Assembly: GCA_034401795.1 (NCBI GenBank)
Contig: CM067372.1
Location: 15,044,426-15,108,425, forward strand
Length of the DNA stretch: 64,000 nucleotides
Reading direction: 5' to 3'
DNA from: Chaetoderma sp. LZ-2023a
Lineage: Eukaryota > Mollusca > Caudofoveata > Chaetodermatida > Chaetodermatidae
Shown here: piece by piece, positions 13,258-61,889 of the stretch
How positions within the stretch are numbered: position 1 is the stretch's first letter
Layout: every line of letters begins with the position of its first letter
Made by a program: the position numbers and the translations under genes
The notes under the pieces: model-generated
Told to the model about the DNA's origin: nothing
The model's input: only the letters and a program-made list of their open reading frames with translations
The model's database searches: none

Positions 13258-14085
13258 TGCTGTCGAAATTGCTTCCGTTATCATGGCTGCTGTAGAGAGT
13301 ACTTCTGTTATCACGACTTCTGTAGATTGCTTCCGTTATCACTGCTGCTGCAGAGATTGCTTCTGTTATCATTGCTGTAGTATAGATTGCTTCTGTTATC
13401 ACGGCTGCTGTAGCGATTGCTTCTGTTATCACGGCTACTGTAGAGATTTCTTCTGTTATCACGGCTGCTGTAGAGATTGCTTCTGGTATCACTGCTGCTG
13501 TAAGAGATTGCTTCTGTTATCACAGCTGCTGTAAACATTACTTCTGTTATTACGACTGCTGTAGAGATTGCTTCTGTTATCACGGCTGCTGTAGAGATCC
13601 GTTCTCGACACGTATTATGCTACCACCGCTGCTACCGAGATGGCTTGCCTTACCACGGCTCCTGTCGAGAGTGCTTCTGTTGCTAGTACTCATTTTGTGA
13701 TTGCTTCTGTTACTACTGCTCATGTCGAGATTGCTTCTGTTACCACTGCTCATGTTGTGATTGCTTCTGGTACCACTGCTGTTGTCAAGATTGATTCTGC
13801 TACCATCGTTGATAACCAGATTGTTTCTGTTACGACTACAGTGGTCAGTATTTCTCCTATTATCACTGCTCATGTCGAGATTGCTTCTGTTATCGCTGAG
13901 CATGGTGTGATTGCTTCGGGTACCACAACTGATAACAAGATTGCTTCTGTTACGACTGCAGCTGTCGATATTGCTTCTGAGGCCACTGCCACTGTTTGGA
14001 TCTCTTCTGGTACCACTGCTGCTGTCGAGATTGCTTCTTGCTTCTGATGCCGCTGCCATTGTTAATGTTGAGATTGCTGCTGTTA
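13258..14085 (+). repeat. 30-bp minisatellite, about 27 diverged copies
   Basis: Tandem copies of a roughly 30-bp unit of the form 'gctgctgtagagattgcttctgttatcac' split here as gctgctgtagagattgct + tctgttatca. The first half (13258-13600) is fairly uniform; the second (13640-14085) is more diverged. Because the period is a multiple of three, long frames stay open on both strands. They read as 10-residue repeats without a start, signal or domain, so they are not called as genes. Confidence 0.85.
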
Positions 14086-19089: not shown

Positions 19090-19320
19090 TTGCAGCTGGG
19101 CATCAACAGAGACCGTGATCCTTGGAACTGGTCTCTCAGATACAGCCCTGGCATCTTCAAATGCTCGGGTTCTTGAAACTGGTATCTCACATACAGCTCT
19201 GGCATCTTCAAAGACCGTGATCATTAAAACTCGTGTCTCCAATACCACCATGACATCGTAAGAGGCTGGTGTACTTGAAACTGGTATCTCAGATACAGCT
19301 GTAACTGAAGGCGTCAAGGC
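19090..19320 (-). repeat. Roughly 54-bp minisatellite (3-4 copies)
   Basis: Diverged copies of a unit containing 'ctggcatcttcaaa' and 'gaaactggtatctcagata'. The same unit occurs twice at 35045-35165, so it lies on both sides of the 19-35 kb foreign block. The minus-strand frame across it (19039-19497) reads as an 18-residue repeat and is an effect of the period. Confidence 0.7.
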
Positions 19321-22446: not shown

Positions 22447-23574
22447 ACAATGTTTTACATACAAGCTGTTGAATATCTGTAAGCTAATTTGACAGTAACA
22501 TGAATTGGAATGTATAGCTAAGAAAGCTAGCTGTAGGCTTTTCATGGCCCCTACTAACGGTTTGAGGGTTTGGCCAGTGCACGCATTTTTTTCTTGCCTC
22601 AGAGGCTTAGTGCTATCCTAACTTATTAGGTTATATTAGTAGACATGGCACAAAATGGGCATAACATTTGAGTTCCGAGTGACACCAACAGCCACAACAA
22701 AGGATACGCCACTCCATATTGACCGGCATCGAAGAGCATAATACACCACTATATTGAGAAACATATACGGATACAGCCCTGGGATGTGAAGAGTTACAAA
22801 AAGTGCATGCTGTGTATTCCTCTGAATGGTAGTGCAGTGGGCTTACTCGAGCACAGGTTCAGAGTCGCTCATCGAGCCTCAAGTACCGTATAATCCTTTC
22901 AATCAGCGAATAATTGTTGGGGGGGGGGTGGGAAACTGATATCGTCTGTTAACTGGCTGTCTGACGATAATATCTTATGTATGATGCTCACGCAGCCACT
23001 TATGTATTAGAAGCTAGTTAGGTTCTTAACTAGACCCCTGTCGCCATCCGAACGGTAGTTCAGCGAGTTGATGCAGTTCACAGATCATGGAGTAGCAAGC
23101 GATATACATATTTAAATATGTAAGACGAAAAGTGCAAACGAATATTCAAAACAGCTATATGGGGACACAAATATTTAGGTCAACACATGTAACCAAGAAT
23201 ATTTAGCACAGCTACAGGACGAGACAATAAAAATAGAGATGTAGCGCATACACCAGATTATTCTGATTCTTCAACGAGTAGGCAGAGCAGCATAATGTGT
23301 CAGGTAGGTGGAACTACTATGCTAGCTCGGAAAGGGCTATTGCCTATCTCTACCTAACTTACCTTTTAGCCAAGGGCCAGCTTGCAAGTCAGGATGGTGG
23401 TAGTGGTGGAGATATTTCTACACAAGGCAGTGGTGGTGTGAGTGTTGTTATTTTGCAGCCTATATCCTTCAATTTGGTGTGATTCTATTATTGTAAAATA
23501 ATAACGAGTACAATTATGGTGAGTGCGGATGATGTGTCGATGTCATAACCGTTCGTCTGGCAGCCCGAATAGCC
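22447..23574. other. Unassigned stretch between LINE and satellite
   Basis: No gene is recognised. It contains a G run (22919-22928) and a short stretch at 22828-22875 that faintly resembles a Pol III box B ('ggttcagagtcg'), which is not enough to call a SINE. Confidence 0.45.
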
Positions 23575-26305
23575 GTAGGTAGTCCACACATTTAGGAAAT
23601 CAGAACCTCAGAACACATACAGCAGTATGCGGTCCACACATTCAAGATATCACGTCAGAAGACATATAGCAGTACGCAGTCCACACCTTTAAGAAATCAC
23701 AACTTCAGAACATATATGGCAGTAGGCGATTCACACATGTAGGAAATCAGAACTTCAGAACATGTATGGCAGTAGGCCGGCCACACATTTAAGAAATCAC
23801 AACTTCAGAACACATATAGCAGTAGGTGGTCCCCACATTTAAGAGATCACAACTTCAGAACACATATATCTCAGTTGGCAGTCCACACATTTAATAAATC
23901 ACAACTTCGGAACACATATAGTGGTAGGTGGCCAACACATTTAAGAAATCACAACCTTAGAACACATATAGCAGTAGGCCGCCCACTCATTTAAGAAATC
24001 ACAACTTTAGTACACATATAGCAGTAGGCAGCCCAATACTTAAGAAATCACAACTTCAGAAGACATAGCAGTACGCAGTCCACACATTTAAGAAATCACA
24101 ACTTCAGAACACATACAGCAGTTGGTGGTCCACACATTTAAGATATCACAACTTCAGAACACATACAGCAGTATGTGGGCCACACATTTAAGAAATCACA
24201 CCTTCAGAACACATACAGCTGTATGCGGTCCACACATTTAAGAAATCACAACTTAGGAACACATATAGCAGTATGCGGTCCACACATTTAAGATATCACA
24301 ACTTCAGAACACATACAGCAGTATGTGGTCCACACATTTAAGAAATCACAACTTCAGAACACATACAGCAGTATGTGGTCCACACATTTAAGAAATCACA
24401 ACTTCAGAACACATACAGCAGTATGCGGTCCACACATTTAAGAAATCACAACTTCAGAACACATACAGCAGTATGCGGTCCACACATTTAAGAAATCACA
24501 ACTTCAGAACACATACAGCTGTATGCGGCCCACACATTTAAGAAATCACAACTTTAGAACACATATAGCAGTATGCAGTCCACACATTTAAGAAATCACA
24601 ACTTCAGAACACATACAGCAGTATGTGGTCCACACATTTAAGAAATCACAACTTCAGAACACATACAGCAGTATGTGGTCCACACATTTAAGAAATCACA
24701 ACTTCAGAACACATACAGCAGTATGCGGTCCACACATTTAAGATATCACAACTTCAGAACACACACAGCAGTATGCGGTCCACACATTTAAGAAATCACA
24801 ACTTCAGAACACATACAGCAGTATGTGGTCCACACATTTAAGAAACCACAACTTCAGAACACATACAGCAGTATGTGGTTCACACATTTAAGAAATCACA
24901 ACTTCAGAACACATACAGCAGTATGTGGTCCACACATTTAAGAAATCACAACTTCAGAAGACATACAGCAGTATGCGGTCCACACATTTAAGAAATCACA
25001 ACTTCAGAACACATACAGCAGTAGGCGGCCCAATACTTAAGAAATCACAACTTCAGAAGACATAGCAGTACGCAGTCCACACATTTAAGAAATCACAACT
25101 TCAGAACACATACAGCAGTTGGTGGTCCACACATTTAAGATATCACAACTTCAGAACACATACAGCAGTAGGTGGGCCACACATTTAAGAAATCACAACT
25201 TAAGAACACATATAGCAGTATGTGGTCCACACATTTAAGAAATCACAACTTCAGAACACATACAGCAGTATGTGGTCCACACATTTAAGAAATCACAACT
25301 TCAGAACACATACAGCAGTATGTGGTCCACACATTTAAGAAATCACAACTTCAGAACACATACAGCAGTATGCGGTCCACACATTTAAGATATCACAACT
25401 TCAGAACACATACAGCAGTATGTGGTCCACACATTTAAGAAATCACAACTTCAGAACACATATAGCATTATGCGGTCCACACATTTAAGAAATCACAACT
25501 TCAGAACACATACAGCAGTAGGTGGTCCACACATTTAAGAAATCACAACTTCAGAACACATACAGCAGTATGTGGTCCACACATTTAAGAAATCACAACT
25601 TCAGAACACATATAGCAGTAAGTGGTCGACACATTTAATAAATCACAACTTCAGAACACATACAGCAGTATGCGGTCCACACATTTAAGATATCACAACT
25701 TCAGAACACATATTAGCAGTAGGTGGTCCACACATTTAAGAAATCACAACTTCAGAACACATACAGCAGTATGCGGTCCACACATTTACGAAATCACAAC
25801 TTCAGAACACATATAGCAGTAGGTGGTCGACACATTTAAGAAATCACAACTTTAGAACACATATAGCAGTAGGTGGTCCACACATTTAAGAAATCACAAC
25901 TTCAGAACACATACAGCAGTATGTGGTCCACACCTATAAGAAATCACAACTTCAGAACATATGGCAGTAGGCGGTTCACACATGTAGGAAATCAGAACTT
26001 CAGAACATGTATGGCAGTAGGCCGGCCACACATTTAATAAATCACAACTTCAGAACACATACAGCAGTATGTGGTCCACACATTTAATAAATCACCACTT
26101 CAGAACACATACAGCAGTATGTGGTCCACACATTTAATAAATCACAACTTCGGAACACATATAGTGGTAGGTGGCCCACACATTTAAGAAATCACAACTT
26201 TAGAACACATATACCAGTAGGCGGCCCACAAACTTAAGAAATCACAACTTCAGAAGACATAGCAGTACGCAGTCCACACATTTAAGAAATCACAACTTCA
26301 GAACA
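23575..26305 (+). repeat. 50-bp satellite array, about 54 copies
   Basis: The tandem unit is 50 bp, with landmarks 'gtccacacatttaagaaatc' and 'acaacttcagaacacata'. Main variants are gcagtatgtgg/gcagtatgcgg and agaaatc/agatatc. Longer blocks are duplicated too. The marker 'cccaatacttaag' occurs at 24032 and 25029 (about 997 bp, 20 units), followed by the same run of variant units. A variant block with 'catgtaggaaatcagaactt' occurs near 23730 and 25980. The array resumes after two LINE insertions at 27688-27744 and 32931-33256. It has no coding potential: the period is not a multiple of three. Confidence 0.95.
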
Positions 26306-27687
26306 ATATGATCGGAGTGCTGATATTACTGGATCAGCAGCATTCGACACAATAGATCACGACTGACTACGTGTTAGACTAGAAAATATGTTTGGAGTAA
26401 CCGACTCGGCTTTAGCTTGGTTTCGTTAATATTTGATCAATCAAACACAAATTGTCACTATTGATGGTAAATCTGCTCAACCTCAAACTTTGTCATTTGG
26501 TGTCCCACAAGGCTCAGTATTGGGACCATTACATGTTATTGCATATACAGCTCCATTGGGTGGCATTATTCGTCAACAAGGATTGAACTATCATCTATAT
26601 GCTGACGATACACACATTTACACCTGGTTCAAATCTTCTGATAGCGCTACTATTACCATCGAACAAATTCAGACTCGTTTGGCTGATATACAACTATGGA
26701 TGAAAGAAAACTTCCTTATTCTAAATGCCGATAAAACATACACCATTGTCTTTTGGATCTCCAAATATGAGAACTAACATGAATAACGTGTCTATTAAGG
26801 CTGGTGAACTTACCATCATACCGGCATCTCATGCAAAAAACCTCTGTTTGATATTTGACTCGCACATTGCACTGGAGAAGCACATGAGCTCTCTGTGTCG
26901 GTCTACACACCTAAGTCTCAGATCCATTGGGCGAATTAGAAAATACCTGACATCTTCAGCGCAAAAATACTTATGCAATCACTGGTGATTAATAAATTGG
27001 ACTACGCTAATGCACTTCTCATCGGAGTCACGGGTCAGACCCTTGACCATCTCTAAAGGATAAAAAATATAGCCACTCGTATCGTCACTTGTTGTAGCCA
27101 CACTATGCTCACGTCCAACCAGTGTTAAAAGAACTTCATTGGTTACCAGTTAGTAGACGTATTCAATTTAAGGTGTGACCTTTAGTTTATAAAGCGCTGA
27201 AGGGTCTGGCTCCTGAATACATTACACAAATGATACGCCTCTACGAACCAAGTCAAAACCTACGCTCAGTCGCAAAACAGCAACTTAAGGTTCCTAGAAC
27301 CCGCCTCTCCACCTTCGGTGACAGGGCATTTGGTGGAATGATTTGCCAATAGCTCTCAGAACAATAACACATGTTAACGATTTTAAGAAAGGACTAAAAC
27401 ACATCTTTTTAAACTTCAATATAATTGTTAATTTTTTAACTATATATATATAGCACTATTTTACACGCTGACCTTGCATTTTAATCATATAAAATTTGGT
27501 TTTTACATTTTTCCCATAGCGTTCTTTTACTAATTATACTGTTTTTACCAATGACTGCTTGTTTACTTACAGATAGTTTTAATGACTGATTGTTTAAAAT
27601 CCCATATAATCTTTTAATAACTGACTAGTGTAAAGCGCTTAGAGCAATTTTTTATAAGCGCTATATATATAAGCCATATAATAATAA
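26306..27687 (+). mobile_element. 5'-truncated L2-like LINE inserted in the satellite
   Basis: This reverse-transcriptase fragment starts within the palm (SAAFDTIDH, with a frame slip, 26337-26362). It continues with FGVPQGSVLGP (26498-26530), HLYADDTH (26592-26616, catalytic Asp pair kept), LNADKT (26722-26740) and the thumb. The last part (27000-27400) is broken by many stops. The tail has the 'gtaaagcgctta'/'aagcgctatatata' stem and ends in an AT-rich 'ataataata' run, as in L2-type elements. The 6-bp AGAACA flanks it at 26300-26305 and 27688-27693, a likely target-site duplication, and satellite sequence continues on both sides. Confidence 0.85.
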
Positions 27688-27744
27688 AGAACATATATAG
27701 CAATAGGCGATTCACACATGTAAGAAATCATAACCTCAGAACAC
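27688..27744 (+). repeat. 50-bp satellite, single unit between two LINEs
   Basis: About one unit ('gcaataggcgattcacacat', then 'agaaatcataacctcagaac') lies between the L2-like and CR1-like insertions. It shows that both went into one array. Confidence 0.85.
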
Positions 27745-27980
27745 GGTTTCTGGTCATGGTGGACGTGACATAATTTGGAAGCAGAATTGCCAATTATAAT
27801 CACCTATAATCAATTATAATCTTATCACGCCTACATAAACAGCTGTGAAAATACAATTAAAAGAAAAGTATTATGTAGTCAATGAACTTGAAGCAATTGT
27901 TTTAGCAAATAATAGTTGAATAGTAGATTAGTCGAGATGCCATATATTTCCGTGATGGCATCAATAAAGAACAGCCGCTA

Positions 27981-29967
27981 TTGAGCGATGGTTCACAATC
28001 AGTTATCGATACAGTAACAGGCCTAAGGAGTAGCAGTACGCGTGAGAGTGACAACAAAACAGTTGGATGGACATGTCAACAGTGTAACAAACTATTTAGC
28101 AACGAGAAAGATCGTGTCTTGGAATGCCAGTATTGTGAACAACACTTCTGTATCAAATGCTTGAAATACAAGATAAGAGAATACAATGCTATGTCAAAGG
28201 CAGAATGTATGTGGTTCTGCCCACCATGTAAGATAAAAGTATAAAAAAACATCATCGTGGAGAAACTTATCAAGAAGTTTTGCGACTTGTACCTAAACAC
28301 ATTTAATGATAGGCTTGCTAAGGTTGAACTCGAGATGGACAAAACATGTGATGTAGCGATGGTTAAAGATAGAGTGACAGAACAATTACATGTTGTAGGT
28401 CCAGATAGAACCCAAAAAGCAGGGGTAGTAGTCCAGAATACAGATGCACAGAATGACATAATGGATGAAACAGTGAAAGAGATGAATGATAGACGTGCAC
28501 GTTAAACAAATATAGTGATATTCAAAGCACCTGAGCCAAAGACAAACCTAAAAGATGAGCGTAAGAAGGATGACTTAAAACTAATTGATGAACTGTGTAA
28601 CAAAACGTGTAATATTAATTTGCCATTAGATGATGTAAAGACAATTCGCCTTGGTAAAAAGAGGGAGGATGACAAACCAAGGCCATTCCTAGTCCAATTT
28701 CCAAATGTAGAATCAAAAAATGATCTGTTCGGAAATCTGCACAAGCTAAGAGAAGTGTCAGCGCCACTAAAGGACTTCAACATTCAGCATGATCTAACGC
28801 TAAGAGAAGTGTCAGCACCAATAAAGGACTTCAGCATTCAGCATGATCTAACGTTAAGTGAAGCGTCAGCGCCAAAAAGGACTTCAGCATTCAGCATGAT
28901 CTAACGCTAAGTGAAGCGCGAGTGCCAATAAAGGACTTCAGCATTCAGCATGATCTAACGCTAAGTGAAGCGCGAGCACCAATAAAGGACTTCAGCATTC
29001 AGCATGATCTAACGCTAAGTGAAGCGCGAGCGCCAATAAAGGACTTCAGCATTCAGCATGATCTAACACTAAGTGAAGTGTCAGCACCAATAAAGGACTT
29101 CAGCATTCAGCATGATCTAACGCCAAGTGAAGTGCGAGCGCCAATAAAGGACTTCAGCATTCAGCATGATCTAACGCTAAGTGAAGTGTCAGCACCAATA
29201 AAGGACTTCCTAAGTGAAGCGTCAGCGCCAATAAAGGACTTCAGCATTCAGCATGATCTAACGCTAAGTGAAGCGTAAGCGCCAATAAAGGACTTAAGCA
29301 TTCAGCATGATCTAATGCTAAGTGAAGCGTGAGCACCAAAAAGGACTTCAGCATTCAGCATGATCTAACGCTAAGTGAAGCGCGAGTGCCAATAAAGGAC
29401 TTCAGCATTCAGCATGATCTAACGCTAAGTGAAGCACGAGTGCCAATAAAGGACTTCAGCATTCAGCATGATCTAACGCTAAGTGAAGTGCGAGCGCCAA
29501 TAAAGGACTTCAACATTCAGCATGATCTAATGCTAAGTGAAGCGCAAGCGCCACTAAAGGACTTCAGCATTCAGCATGATCTAACGCTAAGTGAAGCGCG
29601 AGCGCCAATGAAGGACTTCAGCATTCAGCATGATCTAACGCTAAGTGAAGCGCGAGCGCCAATAAAGGACTTCAGCATTCAGCATGTTCTAACGCTAAGG
29701 GAAGCGCGAGCGCCAATAAAGGACTTCAGCATTCAGCATGATCTAACGCTAAGTGAAGTGCGAGCGCCAATAAAGGACTTCAGCATTCAGCATGATCTAA
29801 CGCAGAAAGAAAGACAGGAATTCAAGAAACTGGATGAGGAAGCAGGAGAGAAAGAGGCTAATGCACAGGGAAACTGGCTGTTCGGGGTCAGAGGCCCACC
29901 ATGGGCGAGAAACATAATTAGGATAAAACCAAAGGATTATGGATCAGAGACGGACGTAAAAGTGTAA
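27981..29967 (+). pseudogene. CR1-like LINE ORF1 (PHD-like finger, coiled coil, RRM-like), swollen by 18-codon repeats
   Basis: In such elements ORF1 encodes a nucleic-acid-binding chaperone. Domains in order: a PHD-like finger (CQQC, CQYC, H, C, and WFCPPC; 28074-28233); a charged, probably helical segment (28257-28505); an RRM-like region (IVIFKAPEP at 28509, then KTIRLGKK and RPFLVQF at about 28637-28700); and a C-terminal NWLFGVRGPPWARN block (29871-29915). Single TAA stops at 28242-28244 and 28503-28505 break an otherwise unchanged frame. Between the RRM-like part and the C-terminus an 18-codon unit is repeated about 20 times (separate entry), with two -1 shifts and stops at 29276 and 29329. 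The protein is therefore not made intact. The start is uncertain: the frame is open upstream of 27981 and has no clear ATG. Confidence 0.8.
28752..29812 (+). repeat. 54-bp (18-codon) minisatellite inside LINE ORF1, about 20 copies
   Basis: The unit encodes APIKDFSIQHDLTLSEAR. Nineteen units are full length. One, at 29202-29215, lacks about 21 bp in frame. Spacing is 54 bp except where one base is lost before 'aaaaaggac' (units starting at 28877 and 29341). One copy of the unit corresponds to the part of ORF1 that should link the RRM-like domain to the terminal block, since the last copy runs straight on into QHDLTQKERQEFKKL. Amplification of a normally single motif is the simplest reading. 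Confidence 0.9.
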
Positions 29968-29978
29968 AAAGTGTAAAT

Positions 29979-32779
29979 ATGGTTCCAGCAAGTTACTTTT
30001 ATTCATCATTGAGTCGTATGTACAGAAATGCGGACAGCTTCATTAATAAGTTTAATGAGTTTAAAATTCGTGTTAAGTTAAATAATTGCTTGATAATGCC
30101 CATAACCGAGGTGAAACCCAAACACCACCGTTATATCTTAAACCCAGCAGAACTATCATTAGAGGACTACGACATGTTTCTTGAAAATATCTCAAACAAC
30201 GTAGGACGAGGCGTATTTCTGTACAAAAATCACCAATGAGAGTTAAGTACACACCAGCAACCGTAAGCTACCGGGAATAAGTTTGCGTAGAAATTGAACT
30301 ATGTAGTACAGTAAAACTATTAATTGGATGAATCCACCGAAGCCCCTGTAGTAACTCAGATAATAATGGACAGTTAAACAAAGTTATCCGACACGTTGCA
30401 TGCCAAGGATATTCACACTTACTGATAGTCGGAGATTTCAACTATCCCTTGATTAATTGGAAGGATTGGAGCACGAAAGCCGATAGTACAGAAAGCGAGG
30501 AATTCAAATTTATAGAGTGTATTAGATACACCTTTCTATTCCAGCAAGTGACATAAGTAACTAGAAGAAGATTGAATAATATTCCTAATACTCTGGACTT
30601 AGTCTTTACAAATGAAGAAGGTATGGTGAATGAAATTGTATACGACAGCCCGCTTGGAAAAAGTGACCATTCAGTACTTCAGTTCGAATACAATTGTTAC
30701 GTCGAGCTCAGTTGCTACAAGAAATTGAAATATTATTATGATAAAGGTGACTATGTAATGTTGAAAGCAGAACTTGAGAAGGTTGATTGGGATATGGCTT
30801 TTGACTCATGTACAAATATTAACGAAATGTGGATACGTTTTAAAGCACTTATAAATTGATCTACAGACCAGATACATTCCAAGCAAAAAGGTTACTGTTA
30901 ATAGTAGGAGCAAAGGGAAATACCCTCAGAACAAAGAATCTATCAAGAAAATAAAGAAGAAGCATGTTCTATAGAAAAGATTTTTGTAGACTAAAGATGC
31001 CAAGTACTACATTGAATACTGCAAGACGAGGAACCAAATAGGAAGGATAACTAGACAACTCTAGAAAGCCTTGAAACCAACTTAGCTAAGGAGGCAAAGA
31101 AAACTCCCAAAGCAGTGTGGAAATACATGTTTCTAACGTCGAGGTAGGGCCCGGAGATAGAAATTCACGCTTAACTACATCAGACAAGGAAAAGGCAGAC
31201 ATATTAGGAAAACCTTTCTGCATTGTTTTACCAACGAACCGGACGGAGAGATACCACGAATTACAAAGTGTCAACTTCAACGAGACAATGATATTTTAGA
31301 AGTTACAGAAAATGCTGTCCAAAAGCCACTAGAAAACCTGACTAGCTGCAAGTCTCCAGGGGCTGATGGAATGCATCCGCGATTCCTAAAAGAATTAGCC
31401 ATACCACTTAGTAGGCCATTATGTTTGATATATAACTATAGTTTGAGGTCAAAAGAACTACCAGAAGAATGGAAACAAGGGAAAATTTCAGCAATTTTCA
31501 AAAAGGGAAGCCGCAAATTGGCAGGAAACTATAGACCTGTTAATATGACCAGTGTGGTGTGTAAGTGTAAGGAGCAGATTATTAGGGACTATGTAATGAA
31601 CCATATGACGGATAACAAACTCCTAAGCACCAAATAGTTCAGATTAGTGAAAGGAAGATCAACGGTCTTACAAATCCTACACGTAATGGATTCGTGGACA
31701 GAACCCCTAGACGAGAGAGAGTCGGTCGACACAGTATACTTAGATTTCATGAAGGCATTTGATATGGTCCCGCATAGAAGGCTATAGTAGGCAAACTAGA
31801 TGCTTATGGTATAACGAACCCAGCCCTTGGCTGGATCAAGACATTTTTTACGGATAGAGTCCAACAAGTTTGTGTAAATGGAGGGAGCTCAGACTGGAAG
31901 CATGTAACGAGTGGCACACTACAAGGCAGCGTACTTGGGCCTGTTCTATTTGTGTTATACATAAGCGATCTACCAGCAAGCCTAAAAGCAGAGGCATACT
32001 TGTTCACAGACGACACCAAGGTTTCCAAATCAATAGCCAATCAAAAAGACTGTGAGGTTCTACAGACAGACCTGAATATACTAAACCGCCTGGTCGGACA
32101 TATGGTTATTACGTTTTCATCCAGATAAGTGCAAGAATATGAGAGTAGGAAGAGCACATGACTTTGACTATAAATACAGCCTAACAACAGATGGAATATC
32201 GCACCAGATACAATTAACAGATGAAGAAAAAGACATAGGGGTTGTAATAGATTCAAAATTAGAATTCGGAAAGCACATAAATGAGAAAATCAATAAAGCT
32301 AACAGCATAATGGCAATCATCAGATGATCCTTCATGTTTTCTGGACGACACAAAATTCAGCGTTCTGTACAAAGCCTTGGTAAGATCACAGCTGGACTAT
32401 GCAGTGCCAATATGGAGCCCATATAAAATGAAATATATAGAAGCGATTGAAAATGTCCAACGTCACGCCCATGCGTCAGTTACCAGGAATGAAGGAACCT
32501 TCTTATCCTGAACGGCTAAAGAAGCTCAAACGACCAACTCTGGCATACAGGAGAGTAAGAGGTGATATGATCGGGGTATTCAAGATCTTGCGAGGAAAAT
32601 ACGATGCGGAAGTTTCAAATATACTGCAATTACATAAAGACTGTGTAGCCAGAGAGATCACCAGAGGACATAGGTACACACTAGTCCAGCAGAGAGCAAA
32701 TTCACATATCCGCAAGCACTCCTTCCCACTGCGCGTTGTTTCAGTATGGAATAATTTACCCAACATTAGAGACATTTAA
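29979..32779 (+). pseudogene. CR1-like LINE ORF2 (APE endonuclease and reverse transcriptase), decayed
   Basis: ORF2 of these elements nicks the target and copies the RNA into it. The endonuclease start is clear (MITEVKPKHHRYILNPAEL-like at about 30096-30150). It continues as VGDFNYPLINW (30426-30460) and ends with LDLVFTNEEGMV (30595-30630) and GKSDHSV (30655-30675). Reverse transcriptase motifs are KSPGADGMHPRFLKELA (about 31350-31400), NYRPVNMTSVV (31528-31560), DFMKAFDMVPHRR (31744-31782), QGSVLGPVLF (31924-31953) and LFTDDTK (32000-32020, catalytic Asp pair intact). The C-terminal SQLDYAVPIW (32390-32420) and a long open end (32447-32779) follow. Stops and frameshifts are frequent, the first at 30237. 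It starts 11 bp after the ORF1 stop. Confidence 0.85.
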
Positions 32780-32930
32780 ATCTAGACTTGATAGACACTG
32801 GAATAATAGTGAACTCCTATACGACAACTACAAGGCGACCAAAACTGGAAACCGTAAAGAATAGAGGGCAGACGATATTGAAGAGCCGACCATAGAGGCA
32901 TGAAGCCTGCATAAGTATACCTAAGTAAGC

Positions 32931-33256
32931 ATAGAGGTAGGTGGTCGACACATTTAGGAAATCACAACTTAAGAACACATATAGTGGTAGGCGGTCCACA
33001 CATTTAGGAAATCACAAAGTCAGAACACATATAGTGGTAGGCGGTCCACACATTTAGGAAATCACAAAGGCAGAACACATATAGTGGTAGATGGCCCACA
33101 CATTAAAGAAATCACAACATTAGAACACACATAGCAATAGCTGGCCCACACACTTAAGAAATCACAACTGTATACACATACAATGGTAGGCGGTCCACAC
33201 ATTTAAGAAATCACAACTTCGGAACACATATAGCGGCAGGGCGTCAACACATTTAA
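32931..33256 (+). repeat. 50-bp satellite, right-hand remainder (about 6 copies)
   Basis: Units with 'gtggtaggcggtccacacat' and 'aggaaatcacaaagtcagaa' variants, more diverged than the main array. They fade out at about 33256. Confidence 0.9.
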
Positions 33257-50035: not shown

Positions 50036-50725
50036 CCCTGCAGGTCAGAATGGACGTTATCCCTGGGAGATCTGGGGCCCATCTGCATGTCAGAGTGGAC
50101 GTTATCTCTGCTAGATCTGGTACCCAACTGCAGGTCACAATAGACGGTATCTTTGCTAGATCTGATGCCCACCTGCAGATGAAAATGGACGGTATCTCTG
50201 CCGGATCTGATGCTCATGACAGGTCAGAATGGACGGTATCTTTGCTAGATATGATGCCCACCTGGAGATGAGAATGGATGGTATCTCTGCTAGAGCTAAG
50301 GCCCATCTGTAGGTCAGAGTGGACGTTATCTGTGTCAGATCTGGTACCCAACTGCAGGCCAGAATATACGGTATCTCTGATAGAGCTGAGGCCCATCTGC
50401 ACGTCAGAGTGAACGTTATCTCTGTTAGATCTGGTACCCAACTGCAGGTCAGAATATACGGTATCTCTAATAGAGCTGAGGCCCATCTGCACGTCAGCGT
50501 GGACGTTATCGCTGTTAGTTCTGGTACCCAACTGTAGGTAAGAATAGACGGTATCTCTGCTAGATCTGATGACCACCTGCAGATGAGAATGGACGTTATC
50601 TCTGCCGGATCTGATGCTCATATACAGGTTAGAGCGGAGGGTATCTCTGCTAGATTTGCTGTTCATGTGTAGGTAGGAATGGATTGTATCTCTGCTAGAT
50701 TGGCTGCTCATGCACAGGTAGTGAG
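50036..50725 (-). repeat. 45-bp minisatellite, about 15 copies
   Basis: The unit holds 'ggtatctctgctagatctga' and 'cccacctgcaggtcagaatg'. Alternating subtypes (toggling 'gaggcccatctgca' and 'tacccaactgcagg') suggest 90-bp pairs. Because 45 is divisible by three, frames stay open on both strands (for example 50214-50738 minus). Two more copies lie at 63427-63525. Confidence 0.9.
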
Positions 50726-52329: not shown

Positions 52330-52566
52330 CAAGATAATGGCATCTCCCAAAATGAAGGAAAAATTATAGTGGCCTATTATTTTATCTCCCAAAATGATAG
52401 AAAAATTCAAAATGGCCGCCAATTTGCATATTTCATGGCCGCCAATTTGCATATTTAATGATATGTTGATATGTATAAATTATCCCAACTTTAGGTATAA
52501 CACTAAATTATAGTTCTTGTTGTTTTTCAGGTTTAGTAGATTAGAGTAGATGAACATCTTTTAGCC
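52330..52566 (+). promoter_or_regulatory. Putative 5' region with tandem octamer sites and a 3' splice site
   Basis: Between the left inverted repeat and the start codon are two tandem repeats: 'atctcccaaaatga' (at about 52340 and 52384) and a 23-bp unit, atggccgccaatttgcat (52412 and 52435), each holding the POU octamer ATTTGCAT. A pyrimidine-rich 'ttgttgtttttcag' ends at 52530, a plausible acceptor for a leader exon that runs into the ATG at 52567. A short upstream ORF starts at 52550 (ATG AAC ATC TTT TAG). Role inferred from position only. Confidence 0.4.
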
Positions 52567-55500
52567 ATGGCCAAACGTTTCATGCTAGTAGATCCTGACC
52601 AACCAAGCGGATCAAAACAGCCCAAGTCACTCACATCTACAAATTGGGACCTGTGCGCATTGTGCCAGAAAGATACAGGGGATGCTCTCCAATGTCCCGT
52701 GAAGAAATTGAATCAAAGTGTTGGAAGTGCGTATAGGTCTTTCGCTAATAACATGGATGAATTTAATAAAATCAGGTGTTTACCAATGGACATTGACATT
52801 GACCGACTTGATGACGGAAGTGGTATCGAAGCAACATTTGAGAGAAATCTGGCAGCATGGCACAAAACATGCTTGTTAAAATTCAGTGATTTGAAACTAG
52901 AACGTGCAATGAAGAAACAAACTGTAAAGGACAAAATACCCATTTCAATGTTTAACAGACGTGGTTCAGGCCAAGCTAAATCAGTTGAACCAACATGCTT
53001 CTTTTGCGGGGAACTAGCAGGACAATTGGGTCTTCGTGAAGCTTCAACCTTCGATATAAATTTTCGTGTCCGCAAATGTGCCCATGACTTACAAGATACT
53101 AAACTGTTGGCAAAGTTAGCCCCGGGAGATATGATAGCGCAAGAGGCAAAATACCATCCCAAATGTCTAGTAAATGTATATAACCAAGCTTCAAGGACGG
53201 CTACCACCATTAATTGTGACAAACCGGATGATCATCTGCATGGTATTGTCTTTGCACAGTTAGTTGCGTATATAGAAGAATTCCGAACAGAGGAAGATAC
53301 AGCTGCGGTCTTCGAGTTAGCCTGTCTAGCAGATATGTATGCAAAGCGTCTTATCCAGCTAGGGGCTATTATTGCGGACAACAGAATTCACAGCACAAGA
53401 CTGAAAAACAGATTGCTAGCAGCAGTTCCTGACCTTATAGCTCACAGAGATGGTCGTGGAATACTTCTTACTTTTGACCAGAACATTGGAGGTGCACTAC
53501 GAAAGGCATGTGACCGTGATAGTGAAGCACTGTGCTTAGCAAGAGCTGCTCAGATTGTGCGTCAAGAAATGTTCAATCAAAAGTTCTCTTTCAACGGATC
53601 ATTTCAGGAGGGTTGTCAACAGGAGTCCATACCAACCACTTTGCTGACACTCGTAGAAATGATACAGGAAGGCCCGAACATTAAAACTCAGACAGAAAAC
53701 GGCTCCTCAAATAGAATTGCTGCTCTTTCTATATCTCAGCTCTTGATGTTCAACAGTGTTAAATATGCACGGGCCGCCAATTCAACAAGTACAGCACGCC
53801 ATAGTCGTGACCGTGAGAGTCCCCTTCCCATATACGTTGCTCTTAAAATTCATGGTCTCACCCGCAAGAGATCTCTGGTTGACACGTTCTTTAGTCTGGG
53901 ATTGTGTATATCGTATGACAGGTTATTGCAAATAACATCAGACATTGCGAAGGGGGTATGTACACGATTCGAATTAGACAATGTTGTGTGCCCACCAAAG
54001 ATGCGCCATGGATTATTTACCACAAGTGCCGTTGATAACGTAGACCACAATCCCAGCTCTGCTACTTCACATGATTCATTCCATGGAACAAGCATTTCCA
54101 TCATACAGCACCTCTCTCATGGATCAACTGGCATGGCACGTGACGAACTGGTTATTAATCAAGACACCTCCTCGACCAGAGTGGTACCTCCATTACCATC
54201 AAGCTTCACATCTGTTCCACCAGCTTCACTACGAACAAAAGAATTCAACGCACCAGTGGTGTGTGGACCTGTAAAGCCTCCAGACAATCGACTTACAGTT
54301 GAAGCCTCAGATGAAGAGAGAGTTTGGCTGAACAAAGTGATGACGGCCACAGAGAATGATACATTTGTGAGTGGAGACTGGATATCCTGGTCAGCCTATC
54401 ATGCTGACATGCAGCAAACATCTTGCCCTCCATCTGCACTAAATGGCCTGTTGCCCCTGTTCCTGGACAATGCACACTCGGTGGCGATGATTAAGCATTC
54501 TATGGATCTAGTCAAGGCAGCTGTTCAGCATCTCAACCCTGGTCAGATTCCTGTCCTTGCTGCTGACCAACCCTTGTATGCCATAGCCAAGCAAATACAA
54601 TGGACGTGGTCAGATACACATGGAGAAGACTCCTTCATAATAATGTTTGGCGGCCTACATATTGAAATGGCAGTCTTAAAGGTAAGTATAAAACACTGCT
54701 TCCAGTACAGTGCTTCAAGTATATTCCTCATGGTTAAATTTATTCCAAAATATCCAAAGATATAATACATACATGATAACAAATTGACATTTAGTATCTA
54801 GTACTCTTAAATATTTTGAAATTATATTGACTGAACTGGAAATTTCAATAAATATGTTCACCAATATCATAATGTGTTCATCTAATAAATGACAAAAACA
54901 GTGGCTGTCATAATTTTGGAAAATGTCCTCCTACACAGGTCATGAAACGACTATCAGAGAAAATTCCCAACTTGATTGACTGTACTGTGACAGCTAATCC
55001 AGCTGGAAATTTTCAAAATAACTTTTGTTTTGGCACTCTAAACCGTCATCCAAAATATGAAAATAAATAATTACTAAATGTTTTAGTCATTAGAGGATTA
55101 CCTAATCTAAACACTACAACTTGATCCAAACATTGTCAAAATACAAGTTGGAACTATGTGTGCTGGTCAATATTACCAATGAATATGATACAGTTTCTTC
55201 TTCTTCTTCTTCTTCTTTATCGTTTTGAGGCGGTTTTTCCAGGCTGTGCTGGGTTCGCCTTTGTTCTTCCTATGGCCTTCCTCCATTTGACACGGTCCCT
55301 GGCGTCCCGTTGGTCTATTCCCAGCAGTCTCATGTCGGCAGACACAGTATTCTGCCAGGTCTTTCTCGGCCTGCCAGAGGGAGCTGTCCCCTCCACCGTC
55401 ACTTTGGTACAACCCTTCACCCAGTCGGCGTCATCCTTCCTCTCCACGTGACCATACCATCTCAGTCTGCTCCTTCTCATCACATCTCCAATCGCCTCCA

Positions 55501-58500
55501 TTCCCGTTCTTCTTCGGAGTTCTGCACTGGACAGTCTGTCCTTCAGAGAGACACCACACATCCACCTCACCATCCTCATCTCAGTTTCATTAAATAAATC
55601 TCTTAATCCTTTAATTGTTACGATTGGCCAAGAAAAGTATAATGCGTGCTTGATTGGATGTTCATTTCGGGATATGAAAAGACAATAAGTCAGTAACCCC
55701 TACCTTAAGCAACACTGTTATACATCATCCTACCCACAGCATATTATGCCTTTAACATTCTCATTATCAAATTCAGATTCTCTCCAATGTCCATCTGTAT
55801 ACACCAAGAGAAGCATTTTTGTAGACTTTGCCAATTGAATAACTGGTTTGCTTATCGGACCAGTCTTTCCAGTGATAACTTCTCCAAAAGTGTCTTCTCT
55901 TCATCTGCAAATCGACATTTTCCAAGGCAAAACATTTTGGACTTGTATGATTGGCAAATCGCTAGGTCTCCCCAGATAATTCCATCCAGGGTTTACAGAT
56001 AGTGTGTCGGGCTTTCATTGCACATGTGTGAATGTCCTATTAAGCATACTAAATCTACAAACATTGTTGTCTTATATTATAGCTTTTGGGGGATTGGCTC
56101 GAAGACAGTGGATGGACGAGTGCTCTGACACAAGCTGATGTTGCAAGCTCTGGCACAGCAGATTCGTTCATTTCGGCAAGCCACGTGACGAAAACACGCC
56201 ATGCTCACCAGGTCACAGCAGCGAGTCTACATTGCTTGATCCATCAGGCATACACAGAAACGTCTCCAACTACTCTCAGCTTTGACGACTGGTGTGCACA
56301 GCGGGCAGTTCAAAGTGTCCATTTTGATTACTGGCTTACCGTTCTGTCCTTAGAGATCATGCTTCTCATCTATGTAAGATCAATTCGGGAAGGAAATTTT
56401 GATTTGTATCTACAATCACTAGCACAGATCACACCATGGATGTTTGCATTAGATCATACACACTATGCCCGCTGGTTATCTGTTCACATCCGCGACATGA
56501 TGATTCTGTCCTCGAAGCATCCAGACATCCTTGCAGAGTTTCGTTCTGGAAAATTCGTGGTCCACAAAACAAGCAACACATTTTCAGCAATGGCAATCGA
56601 CCAATGCCACGAGCAGAATAATTGTTTGGTTAAAACATCGGGAGGAGCAGTTGGACTGACTGACAATCCTGCAGCATTGCGTCGCTGGACTGTTGCGGGC
56701 CCTGAAGTGGCACGGCTGGTTAGAGAGTTTGAAGAAGATCAGATAATTAGTGGATCAAAAGTCAAGCAAAACCTGGAGGGTCTTCATCATGACCAACAAC
56801 CCGCGGTCCAGTCTGCCTTTCTGAAAGATGTCAAGTCCCTCATAGCAGTTATACAAGGGATGGGAAATCCATTTCTGGAGGACAGTGCCGATCTTCTCGT
56901 TCTAGACACGAAAGATATTATGAACAGTTCAGTTGCTGAAACTATCAGAAAAGTGAAAACCCTTGGTGAGGAACAGTTCACTAAGTTTGTTGATGAACGG
57001 TTATCCAATTGTGTTAAGCCTGTTACAGATCCATTGCCCAAGAACAAGTTACCTCTCTTCAGCCGCCCATCAGTCAAAGTACTGTCAAAAGATAAACTAC
57101 AGTTGCAGTCAGTAAAGAGTGATTGTAATTTGTTCTCTAGGTTATATGTGGCTTGTCAGGCGAGAGATGGTGATGTGGACCAATTCTTCTGCCATGAAAA
57201 TCAAGGATCCCCTCCATCACTGTCATTAGGGGGTAAATTACGGCTTGGTACAAAGGCAGATCTAATGCCTTGCATTGAAGCAGGGACAATCACAACAGAA
57301 CAATCTCCAGTTGTTGATGCCAAATTTCTGGATGGTGCCGCTGTGGTCCAGATGCTGAATCCTGGAACAGCAAAAACCTTCTTAGAGTATGCACAGCAGG
57401 TGTTTGTGCCTTATGTATCCTCACAGCTTCAGAATACCAATCGTATTGATATAGTGTGGGACCAATATCAGCCAGCTAGCCTTAAGGGTACCACCAGGCA
57501 AAAGAGGGGAAAAGGTGTGCGTAGACGAGTTGTTTCCTCTTCAGCAATGCCCAAGAATTGGAAGGATTTTTTGCGCGTGGACGAGAACAAAACAGAACTG
57601 TTCAGTTTCTTGTCACACCAAGTTATGCTTTTGCAAGGAGAAGGAAGGAACATATATGCAACTGATGGAACTAATGTGATCTGCTCTTCTGAACAGACAG
57701 ATATCTCAGAACTGTCGCCGTGTTCACACGAGGAAGCTGACACGCGTCTGTTTTTACACATGGCAGATGCTACTAAGAAGGGTTGCAAAAAACTATTGGT
57801 GCGTACCGTTGATACTGATGTTGTGGTGTTGGCAATAGCGACGCTAAACAAAATACAAGCAGATGAATTGTGGGTTGCATTCGGTACAGGTGGACATTTC
57901 AGATTCGTAGCCATCCATGAAATAGTTACAATCATTGGACCCCGGAAATCTGCTACCCTTCCAATGTTTCATGCCTTTACGGGCTGTGACACGGTGTCGT
58001 CATTTGGGGGTATAGGGAAAAACACAGCGTGGTCAACGTGGAACTCATTCCCTGAGGTAACTGAGGCACTTGCGGAGCTAATGAACATTTCAGAAACTAT
58101 CAGTGACAAGTCTATGGAACTATTAGAGCGCTTTGTTGTCCTCATGTATTCTAGAACAAGTGATATTATTAGAGTCAATGATGCTAGGAAGCAACTGTTC
58201 GCCCAGAAATCGCGTACATTGGAGAACATTCCACCAACTCAGGCTGCATTGGAGCAGCACATAAAGCGAGCCCGTTACCAGTGCTACTGTTGGAATATGT
58301 GTTTGTCATCAAATCCGCAGTTGCCAAATCCGTCTGATTGGGGCTGGATTAAGAGTTCCACGGATTGGCAACCATTCTGGACTACGCTCCCAGAAGCATC
58401 GAAGTCGTGCTATGAACTCATACACTGTAGTTGTAAGAAGACATGTCGAGGACGGTGTAAATGTATGAAAGCAGTGCTTAAATGTACTTCACTCTGTGCC

Positions 58501-58524
58501 TGTTCAGGAAATTGTCAGGATTAG
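52567..58524 (+). CDS. Two-exon Academ-like transposase / PIN-XPG nuclease protein with CXC cluster, about 1518 aa
   Basis: Exon 1 is 52567-54681 (705 codons) and exon 2 is 56083-58524 (813 codons plus stop). AAAG|GTAAGT and TTATAG|CTT give a phase-0 intron, and joining them keeps one frame without stops. Residues 30-102 and 144-200 each have a CxxC...C...HxxC pattern, probably two zinc modules. Residues about 440-510 contain a conserved block with DNVDHNPSS (490-498), and D667 (AADQPLY) and GGLHIE (695-700) follow; these could be nuclease acids. EEAD (D1258), DTD (1282-1284) and FTGCD (D1341) with GGIGK resemble the acidic sites and H3TH turn of XPG/FEN-type PIN nucleases. The last 38 residues (1481-1518) hold ten Cys in a CXC/TSO1-like pattern. 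I recall many unnamed invertebrate and fish homologues. The flanking inverted repeats make it a transposase candidate. Academ is reported to carry an XPG-like part, hence the guess. A domesticated host copy is the alternative. Confidence 0.7.
54682..56082 (+). other. Intron of the transposase-like gene
   Basis: This 1401-bp phase-0 intron has a strong donor (GTAAGTATA) and the acceptor TTATATTATAG. It holds an open block right after an acceptor-like 'cctacacag' (about 54939-55069, 43 codons to a TAA), possibly an unused or alternative exon, and a minus-strand LINE tail (55190-55600). Reading through instead of splicing would add 27 residues to exon 1 and stop at 54765. Confidence 0.75.
55190..55600 (-). 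mobile_element. 3'-terminal fragment of a LINE, minus strand
   Basis: On the minus strand, 55579-55217 encodes the C-terminal tail found in several invertebrate LINE polyproteins: RMVRWMCGVSLKDR, RRSRLRWYGHVERKDD, GRPRKTWQ and RDRVKWRKAI. The open frame is intact over about 120 codons, then the element ends in a (GAA)n tail (read as 'ttcttcttc' at 55195-55217 on the plus strand). It is a 5'-truncated insertion within the intron, younger than the intron itself. I cannot assign a clade from this part. Confidence 0.8.
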
Positions 58525-61473: not shown

Positions 61474-61712
61474 TGACAATGATGTGCGAACACACAATGA
61501 CAATGATGTGTGAACACACAATGACAATGATGTGTGAACACACAATGACAATGATGTGTGAACACACAATGACAATGATGTGTGAACACACAATGACAAT
61601 GGTGTGTGAACACACAATGACAATGATGTGTGAACACACAATGACAATGATGTGTGAACACACACTGGCAATGATGTGTGAACACACAATGACAATGATG
61701 TGTGAACACACA
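61474..61712. repeat. 24-bp minisatellite, 10 copies
   Basis: The unit reads 'caatgacaatgatgtgtgaa' then caca. Each copy has tgtgtg-aa-cacaca, a potential small hairpin. Few variants (a C, a G or a 'ctggc' in single copies) suggest recent expansion. Five of six frames stay open because 24 is a multiple of three. Confidence 0.95.
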
Positions 61713-61889
61713 ATGTCCAAAGTAGCACCAGGAGGAAATAAATACATAACAATTCACAAACATGAAAAACAGTGCCGATCACATGATGTTATGAAGTCGC
61801 TATCAAAAAGATGATGAATACTCACAAATTACAATGAACATGGTCGAGCAAGTTTCATTTGGATGGCATCCAGCTAGTAAACAGACTTG

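Follow-up and report, generated by a model that had tools for sequence, protein, structure and literature searches.

In the human genome, 7,276 arrays, or 23% of the minisatellites and satellites studied, are derived from transposable elements (PMC3389668). They are local arrays in individual element copies, begun at or after insertion and grown by local duplication, and the array analysed here, a tandem repeat within a molluscan LINE, appears to be of the same kind. Here the coding sequence of a PHD-like LINE ORF1 is the source, in a genome of 2.44 Gb, whereas in the main text of the human survey the words 'ORF' and 'coding' have 0 occurrences and ORF1 is not singled out. At the level of titles and beginnings of abstracts we met no minisatellite from a LINE ORF1 in the literature, which is not a claim of absence. 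In-frame tandem units inside a LINE ORF1 are known from the length polymorphism region of mouse L1 (units of 66 and 42 bp; PMC3600994). The mouse units are few, from one to four, and are situated in the coiled coil; whole families have them in common, and they were therefore propagated by active elements; ORF1 length changes related to the mouse type occur in perissodactyls (PMC5872511). Compared with the mouse case, the present array is longer and private to one copy: instead of a unit number common to several insertions, at least two units were present in 0 of the 17 sister copies fetched.

LINE sequence has also become tandem repeat in PROsat (from L1 ORF2), in the chicken HinfI satellite (from CR1) and in the common cetacean satellite (from the L1 3' end) (PMC9659126). 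These are satellite families, while the present array comes from ORF1 and, in place of many loci or long blocks, was found at one locus of 1.06 kb. The soybean Gmr9/Ogre minisatellites likewise lie within a retrotransposon, but they are family-wide (a family of more than 3,200 intact copies) and outside the coding region (PMC3305785), whereas ours is private and in ORF1. The array is ordinary in kind and works like the human TE-born minisatellites, with an unusually clear comparison of before and after. Its value is that of a clean, polarised example of minisatellite birth, in which the sisters preserve the single-unit start, the junction identity is only 2 bp and the array seems to record its own stepwise growth. 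It illustrates that selection need not lie behind an array that keeps the frame within coding sequence, and no new protein or system follows from it.

The window, that is, the whole stretch of DNA analysed, comprises 64,000 nucleotides of Chaetoderma sp. LZ-2023a. The original prediction saw about 20 in-frame repeats of 18 codons inside a LINE ORF1, at 28752-29812. Tandem Repeats Finder and a manual parse recovered 20 head-to-tail units in the ORF1 frame, so that the array is where it was said to be, although its measured bounds are 28746-29802 on the forward strand (1057 bp). The LINE and its array are laid out as follows.

27745-28745, forward strand: LINE 5' end and ORF1 before the array, including a PHD-like zinc finger at about 28074-28229 and stops at 28242 and 28503
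28746-29802, forward strand: the array, 20 tandem units with a 54-bp consensus
28746-28853, forward strand: units 1-2, nearest to the sister single unit, retaining A at column 6 and the TCA codon
28854-28906, forward strand: unit 3, 53 bp, with a frame-shifting 1-bp deletion
29177-29209, forward strand: unit 9, 33 bp, with an in-frame loss of 21 bp
29264-29370, forward strand: units 11-12, both carrying an in-frame stop, with the 1-bp deletion of unit 3 recurring in unit 12
29803-29967, forward strand: C-terminal part of ORF1 after the array, open in the frame of the last units
29968-32929, forward strand: decayed ORF2 (reverse transcriptase by Pfam) and LINE 3' end

Seventeen units are 54 bp long, two are 53 bp (at 28854 and 29318) and one is 33 bp (at 29177), within the 10-100 bp range of minisatellites. 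The 54-bp consensus is LSEARAPIKDFSIQHDLT and the sister-type state is LREASAPIKDFSIQHDLT. With up to 3 mismatches allowed, a 30-mer core of the unit gave 19 matches, each with at most 2 mismatches, against a maximum of 0 across 100 dinucleotide shuffles at the same threshold. The array bridges the ORF1 pieces …FGNLHKLRE… (upstream) and …HDLTQKERQEFKKLDEEAG… (downstream), passes cleanly into ORF1 at both edges and keeps the ORF1 frame except for two deletions and the stops. The deletions account for the two frame slips already noticed in the original prediction: units 3 and 12 have each lost 1 bp (CAATAAAGG to CAAAAAGG), each time shifting the frame. The in-frame stops are TAA in unit 11 and TGA in unit 12. 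No difference separates unit 4 from unit 13 or, at positions where both have bases, unit 7 from unit 9. A higher-order repeat was considered, as Tandem Repeats Finder also proposes periods of 141 and 464 bp beside 54, and was rejected: no fixed higher-order period stood out, the smallest mean difference over offsets 1-12 was that between direct neighbours, a result common in shuffled order (p = 0.48), and offset 9 gave p = 0.44. It is likely that the array contains at most a small block copy, units 3-4 resembling units 12-13.

The host LINE spans about 27745-32929 and is decayed. Upstream of the array, the PHD-like zinc finger (PF00628, E 6.9e-5) scores 23.2 bits, just below the cut-off of 24; downstream, the reverse transcriptase (PF00078, E 2e-7) scores 31.4 bits, above its cut-off of 29.6. 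The RRM-like domain that had been proposed to precede the array was not confirmed: Pfam gave no RRM or Transposase_22 match near the array and neither the window piece nor the sister pieces had a PDB match. A frame-path estimate for ORF2 gave 6-9 frameshifts and 7-12 stops in 2891 bp, depending on the cost setting; it is rough, its codon table having been trained on the same element, and serves only to call the element dead. This copy of the LINE is non-functional. Rfam (at gathering scores) and tRNA scans across the window returned no match. By eye, we take the start of ORF2 to be endonuclease-like. The element is a candidate member of the Jockey superfamily (CR1/L2-like) with a PHD-bearing ORF1, a lead suggested in part by PMC4120745.

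Window positions 28500-30000 served as the query for sister copies in the same genome, which comprises 2.44 Gb in 2753 contigs. Of 40 matches, 30 were followed to loci, several of these being two ends of one copy, and yielded the window copy and 17 sister copies, a modest sample from a search that scores only the best candidates and may therefore miss copies. One unit, whole, deletion-shortened or diverged, was present in 16 of the 17 (two of them with one flank only, L007 being without the right and L026 without the left), none in the remaining one and two or more in none. The exception, L029 (C2:56884074-56887230), has a deletion across this region of ORF1 that removed the unit. Four weaker places, on C2, C7, C11 and C16, are outside this count; at the C11 place the two flanks abut in the way expected of one unit. 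According to the 16 sisters, the unit is homologous to a single-copy stretch of the LINE family, and the expectation that this linker should occur once in ORF1, in a form close to LREASAPIKDFSIQHDLT, proved right. The counting of units in sister copies, which the original prediction named as its check, gave at most one in each of 17 and favours a local, post-insertion event, the outcome there given as refuting.

The same picture emerged from searches with other parts of the locus. The array alone gave 20 matches, 6 in the array locus and 14 elsewhere of 33-59 bp, the size of a single unit, and the right flank gave 41 matches and no further array. A 20-mer across the unit-to-unit junction, with up to 3 mismatches, matched 85 times in the 2.44-Gb genome, compared with 19 for a read-backwards control. 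All 18 matches with 0-1 mismatch lie inside the array and one further match is the array's own right end; the 66 matches elsewhere, a number still above that of the control, have 2-3 mismatches (three of them 2), and some are the ends of sister single units. Neither the junction 20-mer nor the array query found a second array in this genome-wide, non-exhaustive search. By eye, there were no clear tandem arrays within the matched LINE stretches of the 17 sisters (Tandem Repeats Finder reported arrays in 8 of the 17 loci), with the exception of a 12-bp repeat of 2.2 copies at 805-830 within the left LINE match of L003. A search for relatives in viral contigs produced 3 pattern matches, 0 of them confirmed.

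We conclude, with a probability of roughly 0.93, that the array is a private minisatellite that arose within a single inserted, non-functional LINE copy by post-insertion growth; it does not represent an ORF1 variant with observed transposition. Of the two outcomes foreseen in the original prediction, a satellite born later from a LINE coding exon holds as far as a later tandem array is concerned, while 'satellite' overstates a single 1.06-kb minisatellite at one locus. The other, that an active element made an ORF1 protein with a long repetitive arm, found no support in the 17 sisters, none with a second unit, nor in the 0-1-mismatch junction, of which the search turned up no instance outside the array.

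Outside CpG sites, the flanks of the window copy differ from the sister majority at 32 of 858 and 35 of 932 columns (67/1790, 3.7%), and the units of the array depart from the array consensus at 12 of 899 bases (1.3%). The array is thus less diverged than its host LINE (Fisher p = 4e-4), in a comparison that is asymmetric, since the array is measured against its own consensus and the flanks against the sister majority, and in which the CpG mask came from the consensus for the array but, for the flanks, from any row with a CpG. The tree is star-like: the window branch measures 0.050 and is joined on by a branch of 0.001 (support 0.60). It contains the 14 rows with both flanks (13 sisters and the window) and leaves out L030, which is too distant, and L007, L014 and L026, in which a side is missing or short. 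The upstream ORF1 stops at 28242 and 28503 are absent from 14 of 14 (three with a 1-base codon gap) and 16 of 16 covering sister rows, respectively, and to judge from these alignments they most likely arose after insertion. Because of the lower non-CpG divergence, the star-like tree and the ORF1 stops not found in sisters, the array is most likely younger than the insertion of the LINE. Strictly, divergence dates the last homogenisation and not the first duplication. A start of the array in some unsampled source copy, shortly before this insertion, would be compatible with the star-like tree.

In its full form, that reading would have the array made in an active source LINE and retrotransposed here, and an ORF1 protein with a long repetitive arm would once have existed. 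We consider it very unlikely. The unit spans 18 codons and keeps the frame, yet one length in three is a multiple of 3 by chance; the source could have been coding, as the upstream stops are not common to the sisters, and a star-like tree would suit an unsampled source, but the single units of the fetched sisters, the confinement of the 0-1-mismatch junction to the window array and the lower divergence of the array all tell against it. A version in which an active LINE lineage briefly had an ORF1 with many 18-residue copies, inserted here and left no other sampled descendant is very unlikely; if true, that brief lineage would have had a protein with a long repeated segment ahead of the C-terminal block.

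Units 1-2, the 5'-most, hold the old sister state and the derived changes sit in units further 3': column 6 has changed from A to T in units 3-18 and 20, with G in unit 19, and columns 13-14 from TC to CG in units 4-6, 8, 13-15 and 17-20. Neighbouring units resemble one another more closely than they do when the order is shuffled (p = 0.02). The old-state units at one end and the similarity of neighbours fit stepwise growth from mutated inner units. CpG decay probably makes up most of the unit-to-unit variation, because 35 of the 158 bases in the 8 CpG columns differ, which is 35 of the 47 differences among units. Identity at the first junction amounts to 1 + 1 bp (GC) in the window; of the 7 sister sites tested, 5 show the same and 2 have 1 bp. 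Identity of 2 bp is about chance level, and so no seeding repeat is evident. Expansion driven by hairpins was tried as an explanation and discarded: no stable hairpin was found in the unit folds, and two- and one-unit DNA folds are less stable than the shuffle mean (z 1.6, 0.9 and 1.2). The proposed course is that a private minisatellite would have arisen inside one inserted, non-functional LINE copy. The first tandem duplication may have come about by replication slippage or unequal exchange with only the 2 bp of junction identity (GC), and the array would then have been enlarged stepwise through slippage, unequal exchange or conversion of mutated units. Most of the differences between units would afterwards have come from CpG decay. 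The frame would have been retained since 54 is a multiple of 3, and not by selection.

Tandem arrays are error-prone in assemblies and this one was read from a single assembly, so that it might be an artefact, or its unit number might be inflated or collapsed. This is highly improbable in view of the many units with distinct changes, the clean edges into ORF1 on both sides and a length of 1.06 kb that a single long read would span, provided such reads went into the assembly; the presence of the array is likely to be robust, and the exact count of 20 less so. As for coding potential, the 18 change types in the reading frame comprise 5 synonymous, 11 replacement and 2 stop changes, with 26% synonymous expected; the test has little power. 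As far as sequence can tell, the codon changes fit neutrality and the array is most likely without function. That the repeat unit was co-opted, the open 213-aa frame at 29326-29967 (about 8.5 units and the ORF1 C-terminus) making a host repeat protein, is barely credible, given synonymous types (5/18) as expected without selection, stops and frameshifts among units 3-12, and Pfam matches of which five fall below their cut-offs and the sixth, PF20751 SP2_M (26.9 bits, cut-off 25), just passes for the whole frame by summing short repeated pieces, none passing alone.

The LINE itself was inserted in another minisatellite, with a 50-bp unit, which is arranged around it as follows.

23571-26305, forward strand: 50-bp minisatellite upstream, the insertion target of the LINE
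27688-27744, forward strand: the length of one 50-bp unit between the LINE-A fragment and the LINE
32930-33256, forward strand: 50-bp minisatellite resuming in register behind the LINE

The two main blocks hold about 54 and 6.5 units. A second LINE 3' fragment (LINE-A, about 26306-27687, with reverse transcriptase by Pfam) also interrupts the 50-bp array, and it and the LINE at 27745-32929 were inserted within a few bases of the same place in the 50-bp unit (around AGAACAC), with edges set by eye. The near-identical insertion place of two different LINEs may reflect a shared nicking preference or chance. A genome search with the 50-bp repeat, in which very common words were skipped, placed 19 of 21 matches at the locus, the two elsewhere being 68-69 bp long at 81% identity; this minisatellite, too, is apparently private to the locus. 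The possibility that the 50-bp repeat is the LINE's own end was rejected: the unit had 0 hits in the 17 sister loci, which stop before the LINE 3' ends, against 68 in the window at the same settings. With a 3'-side query, the best 40 of 107 candidates gave 46 matches, among which those outside the locus stop at or before query base 434 and the 50-bp part was matched at the window locus only, and the repeat was likewise dismissed as a LINE 3' end. Two unrelated local minisatellites within 10 kb suggest, by inference, a repeat-prone neighbourhood.

Further minisatellites in the window have periods that are all multiples of 3 (13258-14038, 30 bp; 19121-19299, 51 bp; 50038-50700, 45 bp; 61474-61715, 24 bp), some of which give long open frames on one or both strands; other periods in the window, among them 50, 22 and 11 bp, are not multiples of 3. 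Long open frames also occur on the forward strand at 52540-54765 (741 aa) and 56083-58524 (813 aa), with no Pfam match at E 0.01; the two may belong to a single gene or to a large protein of a mobile element.
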